Positions 9,059 through 38,534 of a stretch of 64,000 nt of DNA are shown here, piece after piece (the first letter of the stretch is position 1; every line of letters starts with the position of its first letter). Under the pieces are notes generated by a model. That model was not told where the DNA came from, searched no databases, and saw nothing but the letters and a program-made list of their open reading frames with translations. Source of the DNA: Candidatus Poribacteria bacterium (GTDB taxonomy: Bacteria; Poribacteria; WGA-4E; WGA-3G); contig JAJEIP010000007.1 in assembly GCA_022827885.1 (NCBI GenBank), positions 62,001 through 126,000 of the forward strand. Reading direction: 5' to 3'. Position numbers and translations under genes: made by a program.

Positions 9059-9586
9059 ATGGAAGATCAACTCAAAATGGCTCGGCACAGTTTGGAAAAT
9101 CTACCGGCACTCCAGTGTCCTGACGGGTATCATATCCGTACCTATCAGCAAGGAGACGAGATACATTGGGCAAAAATAATGGACAGCGCCTTCGTAGACC
9201 AAGGGAGAACCGCTCAAGATACCCACACTGACGTTATTAGCCAACCCAATTTCGATCCAGATGGCTTCTGTTTCGTCATTCACAAAGATATTCCTATCGG
9301 CACGGCATGTGGGTGGAAGGAATCCCTTCATGGCAAACCGATTGGCTACATTGATATGCTCGCCGTGCTTCCCGAACACACCGGACATAAACTCGGGAAA
9401 TGGTTAACAGTGTTTCTCCTACACTATTTCAAAACGCAGCACGTAACCTCCATCATGTTAGATACAGACGATTTCCGACTCCCCGCAATCAAAAATTATC
9501 TCAACCTGGGGTTTGTTCCTGTTTATGTAGGTGAGAACCACCTGTCCCGTTGGCGCAGTATCTTCGAAAAACTGGACATTTTTTAA
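9059..9586 (+). CDS. GNAT family N-acetyltransferase, tandem paralogue
   Basis: Shares PDGYHIRTYQQGDEIHWAKI and LAVLPEHTGHKLGKW with the preceding ORF. Confidence 0.85.
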   Translation: MEDQLKMARHSLENLPALQCPDGYHIRTYQQGDEIHWAKIMDSAFVDQGRTAQDTHTDVISQPNFDPDGFCFVIHKDIPIGTACGWKESLHGKPIGYIDMLAVLPEHTGHKLGKWLTVFLLHYFKTQHVTSIMLDTDDFRLPAIKNYLNLGFVPVYVGENHLSRWRSIFEKLDIF

Positions 9587-9603
9587 TTTTTCCTTTTCTA
9601 AAA

Positions 9604-11451
9604 ATGAGAGTACCCCTCGCGGTGAGAAACTATTTCCGTTTGCCGAGTTGTTTTGTTATATCTGCGATTCTCATCAGCGGCTTCGGTTTCCGACTTATCG
9701 GGATAAATATCGGCTTACCTGATTCTCCCGACCCCCGTGAAGTGCTCATCGCCCGAGATGTGCTGAACCTCATCCACTTCACAGCACCCCCTGAAATCTA
9801 CAACTGGCCCGGGACAGCATGGTTTTACGTCATTGCTGGGATAGGCAAATTACTGTCGCTTACGGGTTTGCAGCTAACGGAAGCCCGCGTCATCCTATTG
9901 GCACGCTGCATCAACGTTCTGTTGTCCACAGCGACCCTTTGGTTCACCTATCGCCTTGGCGTTCACTGTTACAGTAAACGTATAGGTCAGATTGCCGCAG
10001 GGTTGCTCACTGTTGCGATGTTACATGCCACCAACGAATCGCGTTTCGCACTCGTTGACATCCCCGCGACCTTCTGTGTAACACTGTTTCTCTGGCTCGT
10101 GATACGTGGGCGTTCTTCTTCGACGGAAGCCCGCCATCACGATGGGACGCTCCAGCAGACTGCCGAAGTCGCACCTACATTTCAAACTGCGGTATGGCTC
10201 GGTGTCATCTTAGGGATCGGTTTCGCGGTCAAATTTACAACCGTCTTTGTAGGTTTCTCCTTGCTGGTTTTCACTTTAAGTGAAGACTTTCCCCCACGCG
10301 ATAGGTGCGGTTTCAAACCGCACCTACCAAGGAGCTCCGTAACTCCTAAAAAATTTGCAACAATTATCGGTGTTTCCGTATTAACCTTTACGCTCCTCTG
10401 CCCTTATTGGCTCATTGATCTGGTTTCGCCGGAGTGGAATCTCTTCTTTGAGGATTTCTGGTACGAAGCCACGCATTACCATCGCGGGCACTTCGGTCTG
10501 ATCGCTGCGGGGGAATCTGGGTTACTACATCGGTTTATCTATCTATGGACGCTCCTGAAATGGGGCATGGGACTGCCGCTTGCGCTCCTCGTTAGTTTGG
10601 GAATTTTGTGCGCGCTTGTGCGGCTTAAAAGAGGCGTTGGTGGGTTGCCTGTACCAGAAGTACTCTTGCTGGCTTTTGTTATTCCCTATCTATTATTTAT
10701 CGGGATACATAAGATTAAGTTCGCCCGCCATCTACTCATACTCTATCCGGCGCTTATCGTGCTGGGAGCTGCCGCGTTGGAACGCCTTCCAAGCCTTGTG
10801 GAAATGCTATTATACTCGGTCCGTCCACGCGAGGCTGTAAATTTTCTACGTTCCACTGAAGGTCCTATAGTAAAGTCCATAATTACTTTTATACGACGAT
10901 CGGTGCGGTTAGAAACCGCACCTACCAGGGGAGGGGCAGATTGGAAATGGTTTGGGACAGTCTTGGGGGGTGTTGTGGCACTTTACTCATTGGTTTATAC
11001 GCTTTCGTTTGCCGCTATTTTACTGTCGCAACCGACGAAGATTGCAGCATCCGACTGGATAGCAACACACATTCCACCAGAGGAATCTGTTGCTGTCGCG
11101 CCAGAGATCCTATTCGACTGGCTTCTCCCTGACTTAGACTTTATCGTGACAGATGAAGAGGTGAAATGGGTGCTTATTGTTGTGCCGGATCTTGAAGTGT
11201 TCCAAAAATACCAAGCGTCGCCCCACCGCTATCAAGATGCGGATTGGTACCCGCTCAGCGAGATTGAATTCGAGGAGACACTTGCGTTTTACTCGCGAAT
11301 CTTAGGGGAGGGAAGTTCATATGCGCTGTACAACATATTCCGATGCCCCCCAAAGTTCTTCGGTATTGAAATAATATCCGATAGCGGTGCCCCGTTCCCG
11401 ATGCGCGCCCTGGCACATCCAGAACTCCACGTCTATCGCCGTTTGGATTGA
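9604..11451 (+). CDS. Multi-pass membrane glycosyltransferase (GT39/ArnT-like)
   Basis: N-terminal DPREVLIARDVLNLIHFTAPPEIYNWPGTAWFYV and many TM helices; contains two palindromic repeat insertions. Confidence 0.8.
   Translation: MRVPLAVRNYFRLPSCFVISAILISGFGFRLIGINIGLPDSPDPREVLIARDVLNLIHFTAPPEIYNWPGTAWFYVIAGIGKLLSLTGLQLTEARVILLARCINVLLSTATLWFTYRLGVHCYSKRIGQIAAGLLTVAMLHATNESRFALVDIPATFCVTLFLWLVIRGRSSSTEARHHDGTLQQTAEVAPTFQTAVWLGVILGIGFAVKFTTVFVGFSLLVFTLSEDFPPRDRCGFKPHLPRSSVTPKKFATIIGVSVLTFTLLCPYWLIDLVSPEWNLFFEDFWYEATHYHRGHFGLIAAGESGLLHRFIYLWTLLKWGMGLPLALLVSLGILCALVRLKRGVGGLPVPEVLLLAFVIPYLLFIGIHKIKFARHLLILYPALIVLGAAALERLPSLVEMLLYSVRPREAVNFLRSTEGPIVKSIITFIRRSVRLETAPTRGGADWKWFGTVLGGVVALYSLVYTLSFAAILLSQPTKIAASDWIATHIPPEESVAVAPEILFDWLLPDLDFIVTDEEVKWVLIVVPDLEVFQKYQASPHRYQDADWYPLSEIEFEETLAFYSRILGEGSSYALYNIFRCPPKFFGIEIISDSGAPFPMRALAHPELHVYRRLD
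10302..10326. repeat. Perfect palindrome (GGTGCGG family) inside CDS
   Basis: TAGGTGCGGTTT-c-AAACCGCACCTA; translated in frame as RCGFKPHL. Confidence 0.9.
10866..10930. repeat. Longer TATAGTAAAGT...GGTGCGGTTAGAAACCGCACCTACC element inside CDS
   Basis: Matches intergenic copies at 11530 and 38194 at both ends; palindrome 10902-10922. Confidence 0.8.
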
Positions 11452-11529
11452 AGCATTCTTCGGAAAAAAGTTGTTTTACCGGTCTGCCGAGGTGCGAAAA
11501 GGACATCGAATTCAATTCTGACTCTTCAT

Positions 11530-11632
11530 TATAGTAAAGTTTAGAATTAATTGGGCACTCCGCACCGGTGCAGTTGGGTGAAAGACCCTACCAGGGAAGA
11601 GAAGAGTGCGGTTAGAAACCGCACCTACCGGG
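11530..11632. repeat. Intergenic TATAGTAAAGT/GGTGCGG repeat, compound copy
   Basis: tatagtaaagtttagaattaattgggcactccgcaccggtgcagttgg...agtgcggttagaaaccgcacctacc. Confidence 0.85.
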
Positions 11633-11700
11633 CCTGGGGGAACATATATGTTTTTTTAAATTTAATTTGACTTTATGGTTATAAATTGATATACTCTATA

Positions 11701-11789
11701 AGACTTATGCAAAATGACCAAATTTCACCTATTTTCACAGGAATCGGTGCGGTTAGGTGAAAGACCCTACCGAGGGAATGCGTAAGTCC
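11701..11789. mobile_element. MITE-like element with GACTTATGCA...TGCGTAAGTC terminal inverted repeats
   Basis: Terminal repeats match those at 25267-25471; interior carries a GGTGCGGTT repeat. Confidence 0.5.
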
Positions 11790-11944
11790 GACTCTATATA
11801 CTTTGCACAATTTTGAGGTGACACGGATGCGAAATGGACGTAGCGATGCCAACAGTGACACATCGACTTTCCCCGCGGCTGCGGCGGCTATATGCCACGG
11901 CATAACTGTGCCCTGCTGCGTCGCGTGTTCACCGATAACTCGCC

Positions 11945-11965
11945 GTATTAACGCAGCGTTAATAC
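11945..11965. promoter_or_regulatory. Operator-like palindrome upstream of cohesin cluster
   Basis: GTATTAACG-cag-CGTTAATAC. Confidence 0.35.
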
Positions 11966-12270
11966 TCTCCGCCCCCCCACTTTATATATATTAACTAACA
12001 CTTTTCACAATATAGTATCACGGGTTCTTGCTGTGCTATATGCTTCGCGCTCGCGCGGCCTTCGTCTCATACGAAGGGTCTCGTCGCGGGCTTTTTTTGT
12101 TGCAGTGGACTTTGTCCGGTGGGTGTTAACCCGAAGAGGCATCCATGATCCTTCTGAGGTTAGACCCACCGTTGCTGTATGCACCCAGAGATCCAGTGAA
12201 ACCCAAATTTCTATATCTGTTACAAGACGTAAACGGAAAATCCTGATTCCGACAAAAAAGGAGAATTTTC

Positions 12271-12888
12271 ATGAAAAAATGTCTGCCGATTTTCGCCATT
12301 GTTCTCATCGGATGGCTCGCGCTGACCCTCAGTGGTTGCGATAACGAGATGCGACCCACCATGGACCCCATTGTTGACGCGGTCACCGATGATACGCCAC
12401 CCTCGAAACCTGTGGCACCCCTGGAACCGGAACCTACACCCGAACCGACCGTGCCAACACCGGAACCCGTGGCACCGCTCCCTGTAGGGACGGCTGTCTT
12501 TGTGGAACCGAGACAAATCGCCTCCCCCACTGTCGGGCAGCAACTAACAGTCAATATTAATGTAAAAGAGGCAGCGGATGTCTTGGCTTACGAGGTGACA
12601 GTCGGATTTGACCCGACGGCACTCCGCTATGTGAGCATTGCGAATGCGGATTACCTGCCAACGGGTGCGTTTGCGGCACCCCCGCAAGTTACGGCGAATA
12701 GTGTGTATCTCGCCGCGACCTCCGTGGCAGGGACAGCGGCAACAGCACGCGGTACCCTGGCGACAGTGACATTTGAAGTGGTGTCGGCGAAAGCCTCGAC
12801 GATCACACTCAACGATGTGTTGCTCTCGGATAGCAACGTTACGCCATTGGCATTGAAAACAGTCGATGGCAAGATTACAGCACCGTAG
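12271..12888 (+). CDS. Cohesin-domain lipoprotein
   Basis: Lipobox LTLSGC; proline-rich linker; cohesin-like AVFVEPRQIASPTVGQQLTVNINVKEAADVLAYEVTVGFDPTALRYVSI. Confidence 0.85.
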   Translation: MKKCLPIFAIVLIGWLALTLSGCDNEMRPTMDPIVDAVTDDTPPSKPVAPLEPEPTPEPTVPTPEPVAPLPVGTAVFVEPRQIASPTVGQQLTVNINVKEAADVLAYEVTVGFDPTALRYVSIANADYLPTGAFAAPPQVTANSVYLAATSVAGTAATARGTLATVTFEVVSAKASTITLNDVLLSDSNVTPLALKTVDGKITAP

Positions 12889-12992
12889 GAAGGGGAGTAT
12901 CCCCTTCAAATAAGAGGTATTCATTCTTCTGTAGGCGCGAGTTTCACTCGCGATACCTCTGTAGCACAATCTGTATAAAGATGAAATAAATA

Positions 12993-13147
12993 TTTTGGTA
13001 ATTGACGTGCAATGAATTGCAAGGGTTGGGAAACCTTAGAAGAAACACCCAAGCAAAAACACCCCTACGCAAACTGACCGCTTCGAGCGTAGGGGTGAGG
13101 TCGCCTCGCCTGTTTCCTGCGATTTATCGCACGTTCAGAAATTGAGG
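12993..13147. repeat. GGTAATYGACG...ATTTATCGCACGTTCAGAAATT inverted-repeat family, copy 1 (enlarged interior)
   Basis: Shared ends with 38318-38410 and 55815-55902. Confidence 0.75.
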
Positions 13148-13155
13148 AGTTTCTC

Positions 13156-13962
13156 ATGAAAATCGAATTTTCCAAATCTTTTCGCGGAAAAATGCTTTTT
13201 TCCGTTCTGACACTCACCCTCTGCCTCGGTCTCACAGCGATGGGTTACGGCAGTGCCGTCGTTTCTGTGCAACCCACCACCGTGGAAGCACCGGCAGTCG
13301 GGGAACATCTCACACTGCACGTAGACATCACGGGTGGCGAATCTGTCGCTGGCTATCAATTCACCGTGAACTACGACACCACGGCGCTGCGATACCTCAG
13401 TGCTGCGAATGCCGACTATCTCCCCTCGGAGACGTTCGCGATGCCGCTGCCGGGAACCGACAGTGTTACGGTGGTCGCTGCGGCACTCAAAGGCGCTCCG
13501 TTGTCTGCTGGCGACGGCACACTCGCCACGCTCACTTTTGAAGTGCTGGCACTGACACCCTTTCGGGTTCATCTCACAGAGATGATCCTCTCCGATGCCA
13601 CACCGACGGCGTTAGCCGTCAACTGGACAGACACTCGGCTCGACGGCACTGTGGAAATGCTCCCCGCAGAACGGACCTCCCTCTTTGGGAACTATCCGAA
13701 TCCGTTCAACCCGGAGACGTGGATCCCCTATCAATTGGCAGACGCGGCGGATGTCACCTTGACGATCTACGGTGCCAACGGACGGCTTGTCCGCTCAATA
13801 ATCTTAGGGCATCAACCGGCGGGGTTATATCACCGTAAAGGGAGAGCCGCCTATTGGGACGGCAGAAATGATTTCGGTGAACGTGTAGCGAGTGGTCTGT
13901 ATTTTTACACCCTCACCGCTGGCGAGTTTACCGCCACCGGCAGAATGCTCATCGTGAAATAA
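13156..13962 (+). CDS. Cohesin domain protein with C-terminal FlgD-like/T9SS-like domain
   Basis: Cohesin-like segment plus GNYPNPFNPETWIPYQLADAADVTLTIYGANGRLVR...ASGLYFYTL. Confidence 0.85.
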   Translation: MKIEFSKSFRGKMLFSVLTLTLCLGLTAMGYGSAVVSVQPTTVEAPAVGEHLTLHVDITGGESVAGYQFTVNYDTTALRYLSAANADYLPSETFAMPLPGTDSVTVVAAALKGAPLSAGDGTLATLTFEVLALTPFRVHLTEMILSDATPTALAVNWTDTRLDGTVEMLPAERTSLFGNYPNPFNPETWIPYQLADAADVTLTIYGANGRLVRSIILGHQPAGLYHRKGRAAYWDGRNDFGERVASGLYFYTLTAGEFTATGRMLIVK

Positions 13963-13975
13963 AAGGAGAGAATCC

Positions 13976-15463
13976 ATGAAAACTTTGTTGAAACCGAACC
14001 TATTTTTCAGCTGCCTCACGGTCCTGCTCTGTTTTGGGATAACCGCGCTCAGTTACGGGCAAGCCGTAGTCTCCGTAGACCCTGCGGAAAGTTCCTCTCC
14101 CGCAGTCGGGCAGCAACTCACGATCCGTCTACACATCAGCAACGGTCAGAACGTTGCAGGCTACGAGGTGGGTGTGAATTTCGATACGAGTGCGTTGCGG
14201 TATGTTTCAGGTAGCAATGGGAGTTATCTGCCGACGGGTGCGTTTTTCGCGCCCCCGCAGGTCTCTGGGGGTAAAGTAACGCTTGCGGCGACCTCTGTCT
14301 CGGGTGCGGCGCGCGCCAGCAGCGGCACGCTCGCGAGCATCACATTTCGAGTGGTGGCTGTCAAAAAGTCGACGCTTCGGTTAACAGGTGTCCTCCTCTC
14401 GGACAGTAATGCCAACGCGCTCAGTGTGTCGGTGAGAAACGGCAGCGTTGTTGAGAGACGTGCGGCGAAATGGGATGTCAACGGCGATGGTCGTGTGAAT
14501 GTGTTGGATCTGACGCGTGTAGCGACGCGTTTAGGGTGGCGGGATGCGAGTGCGGACACCAACGGGGATGGCACGGTGAACGTGTTAGACCTCGTGTTGG
14601 TGGCACAACACCTCGGTGAAACGGTTGGGACGACACCTCCGACTGTGCCGGTAACTCCCGTGACACAGCCGACTGTGCCGAAACCACCGCCTGCCCCTGA
14701 AGGCATGGTGCTGATTCCCGCAGGGGAATTTAAGATGGGCAGCGAGGATGCCGAGGCGCGCCCGAATGAACAGCCGATTCATACGGTGCATGTAGATGCG
14801 TTCTATATGGACACACACGAGGTGACGAACCTGGATTTCAAAAAGTTTGTGCTTGCGAATCCGCAGTGGCAGAAGGATCGTATTCCCAAGGCACTCCACG
14901 ATAGAGCTTACCTGCACGACTGGACGGGTAACAACTATCCGACGGGCAAAGCGAACCATCCGGTGGCGTATGTGAGTTGGTATGCAGCGATGGCTTACGC
15001 TGAGTGGGCAGGGAAGCGTCTGCCGACGGAAGCGGAATGGGAAAAAGCGGCACGTGGCGGCACGTCAGGGTTGAAGTATCCGTGGGGGAACACGATATCC
15101 AGTGGTCGTGCGAACTATGGTTATCATCATGTAGGGGGCGCGCGGAAAGTGGGGAGTTATTCAGCGAACGGTTATGGTCTGTATGATGTATGTGGGAATG
15201 TAGGGGAATGGTGTCTGGATGCGTATGACGCGAATTTCTATTTTTCATCGCCGCGCCGGAATCCGTTGAGTGATGTGAATACGTTGTCGAATGCGAACCT
15301 AATCATAGATGACTATACGAATGTAAAGTCACACCGCGTGCTGCGTGGTGGTTCCTACGGCGGTACAGCCCAAGACGTGCGGGTCGCCCGTCGCGCCGGC
15401 GTTACGCCGACGTTCACACACCAAGGTAACGGGTTTCGTTGTGTGAAGGATGTGGTCCCTTAA
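13976..15463 (+). CDS. Cohesin + type I dockerin + FGE/SUMF-like (formylglycine-generating enzyme family) protein
   Basis: Cohesin segment; dockerin repeats DVNGDGRVNVLDLTRVATRLG / DTNGDGTVNVLDLVLVAQHLG; SUMF fold PEGMVLIPAGEFKMGS...RLPTEAEWEKAARGG...GNVGEW...RVLRGGSY. Confidence 0.9.
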   Translation: MKTLLKPNLFFSCLTVLLCFGITALSYGQAVVSVDPAESSSPAVGQQLTIRLHISNGQNVAGYEVGVNFDTSALRYVSGSNGSYLPTGAFFAPPQVSGGKVTLAATSVSGAARASSGTLASITFRVVAVKKSTLRLTGVLLSDSNANALSVSVRNGSVVERRAAKWDVNGDGRVNVLDLTRVATRLGWRDASADTNGDGTVNVLDLVLVAQHLGETVGTTPPTVPVTPVTQPTVPKPPPAPEGMVLIPAGEFKMGSEDAEARPNEQPIHTVHVDAFYMDTHEVTNLDFKKFVLANPQWQKDRIPKALHDRAYLHDWTGNNYPTGKANHPVAYVSWYAAMAYAEWAGKRLPTEAEWEKAARGGTSGLKYPWGNTISSGRANYGYHHVGGARKVGSYSANGYGLYDVCGNVGEWCLDAYDANFYFSSPRRNPLSDVNTLSNANLIIDDYTNVKSHRVLRGGSYGGTAQDVRVARRAGVTPTFTHQGNGFRCVKDVVP

Positions 15464-15845
15464 AAACTGGATATCACCGTAGATATCCCTTCATACATCT
15501 GTTAGATGGGGTCTACGCTGTCTCCAAACCCCGTTTATTCATCAACAGGATGGGCGCAAGTTACCGAAACGTCTTGCGTTCGTCCTCATAGAAAAAGGTT
15601 GGGTTGAACGGGAAACGGTGAAGCGGAATCAATTCCAAGGAAGCCGAGTGAATGGTATCTCTCATCCGTTGCTGGGTGTCCACTACGTGCTGAGATCCGA
15701 TGAAAATATCTTGGTAGGTACCGCTATAGCTGCTTCCTTTTTGGGCAAATTGCGTATACCACGACGGTCATTGGAGCTCCGAACGCCCATCGCTGATCCG
15801 GCACAATCTTGTCATGACAGGGGAGCAAAAAAAGAGGAATTTTAG

Positions 15846-16262
15846 ATGGAAGAATATAATCTTACAATATCGGAAAGTATAGTTTTTAAAATTGCAGATG
15901 AGGTTATCAGGTATCTCAATGAATACCCCGAAGATTATGTTGACTGCCTCATTATGAAAGTAATTTTGGATAGAGAGTCGAAGCTTTCTTGGGAATTTAT
16001 TATTAATACCGCAAGTAAGTTATCGTTCCCGTTATTGTTTAATGGTGAAGAAGTAGACCAGTTTGGCTTTCTTCGTGGTATGTTTGAGATACGTGACAAA
16101 CTTGCAGATCGTGTAGAAAAACGCGTTAAACAAGAAATGGGAGAATATAACGGTCCTCCAAATAATTGGAATAAGTTCGATCGCTTTAGGAGACTTATAG
16201 TAGACATAGCAAGAATCTTGCCTTACCTATCGGATTTCTTCAACTTAAGCAATGAACCATGA
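15846..16262 (+). CDS. Hypothetical protein
   Basis: ORF with AT-rich codon usage; no recognised motif. Confidence 0.5.
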   Translation: MEEYNLTISESIVFKIADEVIRYLNEYPEDYVDCLIMKVILDRESKLSWEFIINTASKLSFPLLFNGEEVDQFGFLRGMFEIRDKLADRVEKRVKQEMGEYNGPPNNWNKFDRFRRLIVDIARILPYLSDFFNLSNEP

Positions 16263-16272
16263 TCAAAGTCAG

Positions 16273-16340
16273 GTAGCGCTTTATCGTGCGAACTGTCATT
16301 TTGCGGGTCATGCAGGCACAAACTGACAGTTTATGCTACA
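16273..16340. repeat. TGTAGC...AACTGACAGTTTATGCTACA imperfect inverted repeat
   Basis: Right arm matches repeat at 32109-32166. Confidence 0.55.
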
Positions 16341-16398
16341 AAAGAGAAGCGTACGGAAGTCCTATTACTCTGAAGTATATAGACAATCACCAGCAACC

Positions 16399-17991
16399 CT
16401 AAGCCGCAGAAGGACGTTCCTGCATCACGGGGATGACGTAACTCCGAATTTTCATACCCGCTACCGTTTCGGTCTCCGCCCGCGGCTCTGGCTGCTGGCG
16501 GTGATCGAAGACGACATAATACCCTTCTTGCGCATCTTCTAACTTCAGATATGCCGCAAGTTGTGCTTTGCCGGCTTGATAATATCGGTTGCCTTCCCAG
16601 ATTTTCGTCTCAACGATGTATTTTCGTTGGTTGTGGAGAATCAGAAGGTCCATTCTGCCGCGTCCGGTCTGGACTTCAAGGAACATACTCGCACCGACAA
16701 TACGGACGAAATGGTCGAGATACGCGTAAAGGAGGTATTGCCCGACATATTCTTGCGGGGTATCCGGCACTTGTAAGATGCGGAACCCGGCGCGAGCGAT
16801 GAAGGCTTGGAAGTTATCAAGAAGGCGTTCTATTTCAAGATCCCCGGTGGGCGTGAGGTAATCCCTAAAATTCTCGCCTGTGTCTTCGGGGAAGTAGGTG
16901 TTCTCAAGTCCGTTAACTGTCGGTTTGAATATTTGCAGGATGCGATGCTGATAGATAGGATTCACAATCTCACAGAGCCCATCGGGATCCTCTGTGATAA
17001 CGCCATACGTAACGAGTTCGTTCATGAGATCATCGTCCGGATCGAAGAGTATACCGTTCTCATAAGAGACGATACGCATCAAGAGTTTTTCAAACCGCGG
17101 GTCCCTTCGGACGTTCGCTCTCAAATGATCGATGTTGGCGTTCCGTTCCCGCAGGAGTTGCTTGTATGCCTGTGCAAAGTGCGTCATAGAAATGATTTCG
17201 GTTTTCGGGATGTCCAATTCTTCAGTAAGAATTTGGGCACATCGATTCACAAGGAAAGGTTGTCCGGCAGTCTGTTTATGGAGACTTTCAATCACCTCTG
17301 GTGCGAAGGGTTGCCCGACTTCGTCGGTATACTGTCCGAGGAGGTCGCCGACTTCTTCGAGTGTAAAGTTCGGCAATCGGAACTCATCTTGGATATTGAA
17401 AGGCGAGATAGACCGGTCATAATCAAGTTGTATGATGCTCTTGATCCCCACAATGCCGACACTGTAGGGACACAGGCGTTCATCGGAAAGGTAGATCTGT
17501 CGGAGTGCATGCAGAAAACCCTTCACAGCGGCCTGCGGGATACCATCAAACTCGTCAATAATGACAACAACCCGCTGGTTCTTCAGGAAACGCCCGAAAC
17601 GCGTAAAAAATCTTCTCATGGAGACATGATCCGTCAGTTGTGTGTTCTGTAAAAATTGCGTTAAAGCGTCAGTGGGTTCTGCTCCGCGCTTTTGAAAAAC
17701 GTTTTCGATTTCCTCACAAATATCTTCGTAGAGGTGGTTGTAAAAGCCAGCCGCAGAATAGTCTTCATACACCTCAAAATTGAGGTGTATGGCGAGATAG
17801 GTTGGATCCTCAGCAGTGAGTTTGTCAAGTGCCAAGCGAAAAAAGGTGGTTTTACCGGTCTGACGGGGCGCGAAGAGGACGATGTATTTTCCATCTCTGA
17901 TGCGGGTGATGAAATCGGCGACGTGCGCTGTTCGGGGGACGATATAGTGTTGTTCTGGGCGTACACGCCCTTGGGTCCCAAAACTTCTCAT
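16399..17991 (-). CDS. AAA-like ATPase with C-terminal PD-(D/E)XK-like nuclease domain
   Basis: Walker A APRQTGKTTFF; VVIIDEFDG; C-terminal GRGRMDLLILHNQRKYIVETKIW. Confidence 0.85.
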   Translation of the reverse strand: MRSFGTQGRVRPEQHYIVPRTAHVADFITRIRDGKYIVLFAPRQTGKTTFFRLALDKLTAEDPTYLAIHLNFEVYEDYSAAGFYNHLYEDICEEIENVFQKRGAEPTDALTQFLQNTQLTDHVSMRRFFTRFGRFLKNQRVVVIIDEFDGIPQAAVKGFLHALRQIYLSDERLCPYSVGIVGIKSIIQLDYDRSISPFNIQDEFRLPNFTLEEVGDLLGQYTDEVGQPFAPEVIESLHKQTAGQPFLVNRCAQILTEELDIPKTEIISMTHFAQAYKQLLRERNANIDHLRANVRRDPRFEKLLMRIVSYENGILFDPDDDLMNELVTYGVITEDPDGLCEIVNPIYQHRILQIFKPTVNGLENTYFPEDTGENFRDYLTPTGDLEIERLLDNFQAFIARAGFRILQVPDTPQEYVGQYLLYAYLDHFVRIVGASMFLEVQTGRGRMDLLILHNQRKYIVETKIWEGNRYYQAGKAQLAAYLKLEDAQEGYYVVFDHRQQPEPRAETETVAGMKIRSYVIPVMQERPSAA

Positions 17992-18089
17992 TTCTCTTCC
18001 TTGAACGGAGCGTTCTCCCCACGGAGGCGATCGGATTTTCAGGTGCCTCACGACAGTTTAAGAGGCGTTTCTCACGGGAGGATCCCGGC

Positions 18090-18740
18090 TTACATGACGG
18101 GGGGCTTGAAATAATTTTTTTGGATAGGCACGAGCGTTGACAGGATTTGATGAAGTACATCCGCTGCAGTCGTATCGGCATCAATGATACGAATGAGGTC
18201 TTGCGGATAATAATCAATCAAGGGTTCGGTTTCTCGTTTGTAAACATCCCACCGGTAACGCACCACGATCTCTTCAGAATCGTCGATTCGATTTTCTTTG
18301 AGTGAGCGTCCTCGGATGCGTCTAAACATCACTTCCCGGTCCTCACAGACCATGTAGATGACCTTAAAAAGTTTAATATAAGGTCCGATGAGACCTGCTT
18401 GCGCGATATTGCGTGGGATGCCATCAAGAATCAGCAGATCGCTTTCTGGCCTGTAGACCTGCTCGTGAACTTTTGCCGCCATGTAGTCTTGCCAGATTTT
18501 GATTGTAATGTGATCTGGAACTAATTTACCGATGCCTGCGTATTGTTGGAAAATCTGTCCGCATTTGGAATTGACATCAAGTTCGCGGAACATATCCCCA
18601 CTGGAGACGTGGAAAATGCCAGGGATTCCAGCCAGCAATTTCCCTTGTGTTCCCTTACCAACACCAGGGGGACCCACAAGTATAACTGCTTGATAACACA
18701 GTCCATCCACCTCGTGTAGAGGGCTCTTATCCGTTGTCAT
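18090..18740 (-). CDS. Adenylate kinase-like nucleoside monophosphate kinase
   Basis: GPPGVGKGTQGKLLA; SSGDMFR; LILDGIPRN. Confidence 0.85.
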   Translation of the reverse strand: MTTDKSPLHEVDGLCYQAVILVGPPGVGKGTQGKLLAGIPGIFHVSSGDMFRELDVNSKCGQIFQQYAGIGKLVPDHITIKIWQDYMAAKVHEQVYRPESDLLILDGIPRNIAQAGLIGPYIKLFKVIYMVCEDREVMFRRIRGRSLKENRIDDSEEIVVRYRWDVYKRETEPLIDYYPQDLIRIIDADTTAADVLHQILSTLVPIQKNYFKPPVM

Positions 18741-23976: not shown

Positions 23977-24120
23977 CTACTATAGTAGATTTTAGAATTA
24001 CTTAGACATTAGAGATGCGGACTTAACCCCCTAACCCCCCTTATCAGGGGGGAATTAGCGGTCTTTCTCATGACACATTGACTTGCAAATATCTACCTAT
24101 TTATAGGATTTACCATAAAT

Positions 24121-38193: not shown

Positions 38194-38269
38194 TATAGTA
38201 AAGTTTAGAATTAATTGGACACTCTGCACCGGTGCGGTTGGGAAACCACACCTACCGGGAAAGGTGGGA
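38194..38269. repeat. TATAGTAAAGT/GGTGCGG repeat, intergenic copy
   Basis: tatagtaaagtttagaattaattggacactctgcaccggtgcggttgggaaaccacacctaccggg. Confidence 0.9.
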
Positions 38270-38317
38270 AGGTCCATTTATTTTTCGGATCCACTATAAT
38301 GAAGATTAATTTATTAA

Positions 38318-38410
38318 TTCGGTAATTTCTGAACGTGCGATAAATCGCACGACTACGAACCAGCCCGTTTGTAGTAGGGAGCCCCTTTAGGGTTTCCCGT
38401 CTATTACCGA
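38318..38410. repeat. TTCGGTAATTTCTGAACGTGCGATAAATCGCAC...ATTACCGA inverted-repeat family, copy 2 (opposite orientation)
   Basis: Reverse complement of the 55815-55902 copy. Confidence 0.85.
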
Positions 38411-38534
38411 TTTATTTTTTTAAACCCCATACAAAAAATCCGACTGACTGCTGAAAACTATTTTGATTTTTTTACTATCCTTTTCAATCTTAAGGGACTC
38501 TATATAGGCAAATCCATAGAAAGAGGAGAAAATC

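Follow-up and report, generated by a model that had tools for sequence, protein, structure and literature searches.

Two in-frame repeat insertions, a probable REP-centred MITE remnant and a separate REP hairpin, in a glycosyltransferase gene of Candidatus Poribacteria

The stretch of DNA analysed here (64,000 nucleotides; the window) belongs to the draft genome of a sponge symbiont, a Candidatus Poribacteria MAG of 5.13 Mb in 148 contigs. A GT-C membrane glycosyltransferase gene of the PMT_2/ArnT-like type lies at 9604-11451 on the + strand and encodes 615 amino acids; the enclosing ORF, 9550-11451, has 633. Pfam domain PMT_2 was detected in the product, orthologues are present across Poribacteria, and the AlphaFold2 model has a GT-C fold (pTM 0.79), with ArnT (5f15) as the best match among solved structures. 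Directly 3' of the gene, relatives have an adenylate-kinase-like gene, which in the window lies about 6.7 kb further on (11451-18200); the extra DNA between the two starts at a REP/MITE cluster at 11530-11793. Nothing in the window scored above the cut-off of an Rfam family, and no tRNA was found near the feature.

Two in-frame inserts lie inside the gene. When orthologues from about 60 genomes were aligned, the inserts were missing from nearly all of them; the empty sites in relatives are seen in both protein and DNA, and because nearly all relatives lack the inserts, both are real insertions. Site 1 (10290-10343, + strand) is a net gain of 54 bp that adds 18 residues, PPRDRCGFKPHLPRSSVT. It holds a REP hairpin, lacks MITE arms and has no defined ends apart from the hairpin; the REP core (10304-10328) carries its GTAG tag on the - strand, and the covariance-model match is limited to this core. 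Site 2 (10866-10941, + strand) holds the left arm and centre of a MITE, which we call MITE-A, together with a REP, the right ~19 bp being lost. Its net gain of 66 bp, placed at about 10863-10942 by DNA comparison with relatives, adds about 22 residues, PIVKSIITFIRRSVRLETAPTRGG..., in frame. The left terminal inverted repeat of MITE-A, TATAGTAAAGT, occupies 10866-10876 (+), and the hairpin core at 10902-10926 reads GGTGCGGTTAGAAACCGCACCTACC, or GGTAGGTGCGGTTTCTAACCGCACC on the - strand; TATAGTAAAGT and the sequence GGTGCGGTTAGAAACCGCACCTACCAGGGGA (10902-10932) are both part of the ORF, which here encodes ...RRSVRLETAPTRGGADWK. The two coding insertions thus differ in kind, site 1 being REP only and site 2 a right-truncated MITE with its REP.

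Each insertion is shared by inheritance with another genome. Among the aligned relatives, site 1 is common only to G034 (L060, which is L079) and site 2 only to G008 (L046/L078), where a further 78 bp have been added. G008 is the closest relative, yet it lacks site 1. When the region around site 1 (10230-10360) was compared with L046 and L060, the window resembled G034 leftward and G008 rightward, a mosaic similarity which suggests either a short recombination tract or loss of the insertion by recombination.

Copies of MITE-A are typically 93-105 bp long, with ends TATRGTARA...TTTACYATA, arms of ~30 bp and no ORF of their own. The terminal inverted repeats form a 12-bp outer stem with changes on both sides at several pairs. 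The extended left end, TATAGTAAAGTNNANAATTA, occurs 13 times in the genome, and the REP hairpin has 85 copies at no more than one mismatch, versus none for the reversed control in each case; these numbers are far beyond chance. A covariance model (R1) trained on 10 copies, all outside the window, recovered the copies already recognised from the sequence alone at 38194-38298 (E 3.8e-16), 11530 (E 2.2e-7) and 10866 (E 3.6e-7), and moreover an unlisted one at 23981-24117 (E 7e-7). The first, on the + strand, is a complete 105-bp element with a central REP and a flanking TA duplication. The copy just downstream of the gene (11530-11669, +) is indeed compound, as had been proposed, and consists of a MITE-A left arm, a variant REP (11567-11592), a second REP hairpin (11605-11629) and a degenerate right arm. 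The copy at 23981-24117 (+) is also complete, and its centre is a different palindrome (CCCCCCTTATCAGGGGGG) with no REP; four copies of 124 bp (L001, L002, L010 and L013) likewise have other centres. A second kind of inverted-repeat element, with acttaYgca arms and a variant REP at its centre, lies at 11700-11793 (+), and the same architecture is seen at L024, L029 and L157. The element consists of two nested repeats, a REP hairpin, GGTGCGGTTnnnAACCGCACCTACC, placed centrally in a MITE whose terminal repeat is TATAGTAAAGT.

In the REP hairpin, the tetranucleotide GTAG directly adjoins the 5' side of a GC-rich palindrome (- strand: GGTAGGTGCGG...CCGCACC). Its copies are mainly intergenic, and they also stand singly, form arrays or lie within inverted-repeat elements of other kinds, of which that at 11700-11793 is an example; between about a fifth and a quarter lie in MITE-A, an approximate share in which near-perfect palindromes were sometimes counted on both strands. 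The genome has four Y1 genes, three of them REP-associated by NCBIfam. One RAYT (C137:11904-12317; NF047646, 128 bits) is flanked by this same hairpin on both sides, one copy being inverted; in L075 the order is a REP at 1382 (+), the RAYT at 1420-1911 and a REP at 1976 (-). In other species, the clade of the C137 RAYT adjoins GTAG-GTGCGG or GTAG-GTTCGG repeats. The C137 RAYT and the hairpin are associated, and we predict that they are a cognate pair. A RAYT beside a REP on contig C144 was rejected as the cognate enzyme, being of another clade and ~39% identical to the C137 RAYT.

Mobility is seen directly at 38194. The site in G008 is empty and reads ...GATTTTTTTAATGAAGATT..., with a single TA remaining and flanks that are 94-97% identical, and the filled site in the window reads ...GATTTTTTTA[TAGTAAAG...CCACTA]TAATGAAGATT.... 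Since the copy is absent from G008 and one TA is left there, the composite of MITE and REP entered as a unit, duplicating TA. G017 also lacks this copy and carries, a few bases away, an independent MITE of the family with a GGCGAGG REP, again at TA. TA is accordingly the target-site duplication of MITE-A, in the manner of IS630/Tc1 elements; at site 2 no duplication is directly visible, as the right end is gone. A search of the DDE_3 genes in the draft genome found no IS630-type transposase with TATAGTAAAGT ends, and the sole long DDE_3 gene (L134) has no matching termini nearby. Therefore we claim only a MITE with IS630-like target choice. Another high-copy repeat (aatgaagattaatttattaattcgg...), with many matches in relatives, adjoins the MITE at 38299-38420. 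The sequence-only reading had argued for recent mobility of a non-autonomous element. The empty site with TA duplication at 38194 supports a non-autonomous mobile family, and "recent" fits 38194 rather than the coding copies, neither of which is confined to this genome, since G034 also has site 1 and G008 also has site 2.

We consider it unlikely that the hairpin is just an integral part of the MITE's own centre, such as a terminator-like stem, unrelated to RAYTs. Although all seven copies with exact inner arms have either the REP or a variant of it in one common position, and although the composite moves as a unit, the hairpin is also found outside MITE-A, MITE-A can hold other palindromes, and a RAYT lies between inverted copies of this very hairpin, with the RAYT clade tracking the repeat. 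Less probable still is the proposal of the sequence-only reading, in which the gene twice received one non-autonomous element of 65-75 bp that begins with TATAGTAAAGT and finishes with CCTACCRGG. The window does hold three exact matches to the 11-mer TATAGTAAAGT (10866, 11530 and 38194), each 36-37 bp left of the hairpin, so that the two motifs go together in three of three copies, and the copy at 10866 does lie in frame within the gene. However, most hairpin copies lack TATAGTAAAGT, the copy at 23981 and the four 124-bp copies are MITE-A without this hairpin, full copies, which already contradict the proposal, end in TTTACTATA and not in CCTACC, and site 1 has no MITE arm. The coding copy was said to match both ends of the copies at 11530 and 38194; the 11-mer and the hairpin are common to all three, but the right arm is missing from the coding copy. 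Similarly, the gene has indeed received two separate insertions, but the one at 10304 shares the hairpin only and is not a second copy of the same element, and the complete element, at about 93-105 bp, is larger than had been supposed.

The copy closest to site 2 is a complete 95-bp element (C143:5342-5417) that is 89% identical to it over 76 bp. That element runs on into GGGGGATGTTCAGATATTTTCGGGCTTTACGATA at the point where site 2 ends after CAGAT and host sequence follows. Insertion of a 95-bp element at TA would add 93 bp (31 codons), and the observed gain of 66 bp thus implies a loss of ~27 bp; 93 and 66 are both multiples of three, and the right arm of the element would also be open in the site 2 frame. 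We read site 2 as a MITE copy that probably lost its right arm, and it may alternatively have been inserted as an already truncated copy. The idea that the segment is ordinary protein sequence or a chance similarity can be set aside, for although it is open and in frame in a gene that looks functional, nearly all of the ~60 homologues lack it, no conservation of the peptide was seen in distant homologues, and its 76-bp match lies at an unrelated place in the genome. It is equally improbable that a repeat was joined to the gene by mistake during assembly or binning, since, for all that the genome is a draft, an independent MAG (G008/L078) has site 2 and a further one (G034/L079) has site 1, with the frame intact in all.

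The gene that received these insertions remains under purifying selection, its dN/dS versus relatives being 0.17-0.27. In the AlphaFold2 model, two of the segments with pLDDT below 50, residues 227-245 and 433-444, are inter-helix stretches that coincide in part with the two inserts. The gene seems to tolerate the site 2 element, which is translated as 22 additional residues within a flexible loop. Orthologues in other Poribacteria species have received repeats as well, one carrying a whole MITE in frame (L087:3001-4833) and another an in-frame array of four GTAG-type hairpins (L132:2953-4788).

Only three of the REP copies examined lie clearly inside a CDS, the two described here and one at C81:99262. 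Most other REPs in long ORFs were rejected as coding insertions, being tandem arrays upstream of genes or lying in spurious ORFs. In the second protein (L154:3-1226; G000:C81:98276-99499), one loop carries the REP peptide (PVGAVSNRT and variants) in seven species; in several further species the same loop has another peptide, SCPPEKGGRGV, which also derives from a palindrome, and a few species have neither peptide. This loop appears to be a recurrent acceptor site for repeat-coded sequence, and the presence of the REP peptide in seven species means that intragenic copies can be old and inherited.

We therefore hold it highly probable that site 2 is the remnant of a REP-centred MITE, that site 1 is a separate REP hairpin insertion, and that the loops tolerate both. 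MITE-A targets TA, which is duplicated on insertion, and is presumably mobilised in trans by an IS630/Tc1-type DDE transposase; the GTAG-tagged REP hairpin at its centre is of a type that RAYT (TnpA-REP) enzymes process. In the glycosyltransferase gene, a TA would have received a copy of the 95-bp subtype, open in frame, and a later deletion of ~27 bp, to judge from the junction, would have removed its right arm while the frame was kept. At site 1, a REP hairpin with other flanks entered in an independent event. Both insertions may survive, perhaps neutrally, by extending flexible inter-helix loops of an enzyme that is still constrained. A broader idea, which we put forward tentatively and regard as somewhat less than an even bet, is that MITE-A serves as a carrier whose REP cargo can be exchanged: hairpins made by different RAYTs (GTGCGG, GCGAGG and other palindromes) would repeatedly fill the central slot and be spread by a DDE transposase, and flexible loops would be recurrent in-frame acceptors, the same loop holding different repeat-coded peptides across species.

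The individual parts of this picture have been published: GTAG REPs and RAYT/TnpA-REP systems, or REPtrons (Nunvar 2010, PMC2817692; Di Nocera 2013, PMC3733652; Corneloup 2021, PMC8266576), intragenic REPs, including two in one gene, and REPs inside TATAG palindromes (PMC3733652), and in-frame MITEs (PMC5896051). We found no relevant report of a REP or MITE in Poribacteria in the literature searched. The value of the case lies in unusually clean empty-site evidence and in the nested architecture. It offers a datable, empty-site-supported instance of small palindromic repeats turned into protein sequence in Poribacteria. It shows directly, too, that a MITE inserting at TA can carry REP hairpins within it, which offers REPs a way to spread without a RAYT acting at the insertion step. 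It also supplies a natural series in which to study how repeat-coded loops are tolerated or kept by proteins.

Like bacterial IS630/Tc1-mariner-type MITEs, among them the in-frame QMITE2 of Coxiella (PMC5896051), MITE-A is ~100 bp long, has terminal inverted repeats and TA ends, lacks an ORF and is occasionally fused in frame; unlike them, it has no autonomous partner that was found in this genome. The hairpin resembles known GTAG REP/RAYT systems in having GTAG beside a near-perfect GC-rich palindrome with a loop of 3-4 nt, ~85 mostly intergenic copies and a RAYT flanked by two inverted REPs, but its host is a poribacterium and many of its copies are central in MITEs. Intragenic in-frame REPs and Rickettsia palindromic elements add ~20-30 amino acids and have also entered one gene twice (uvrA, uvrB) (PMC3733652 and references therein). 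The repeats described here work alike, without our claiming membership, and they differ in that their target is a GT-C membrane enzyme, empty sites exist in close relatives and one insert is a truncated MITE. Finally, GTAG-15 of Anabaena variabilis, in which REP dimers lie inside TATAGGA...TCCTATA palindromes (PMC3733652), likewise places a GTAG REP centrally in a palindrome with TATAG ends; in Poribacteria, by contrast, such palindromes also exist without this REP, and an empty site demonstrates the TA duplication.
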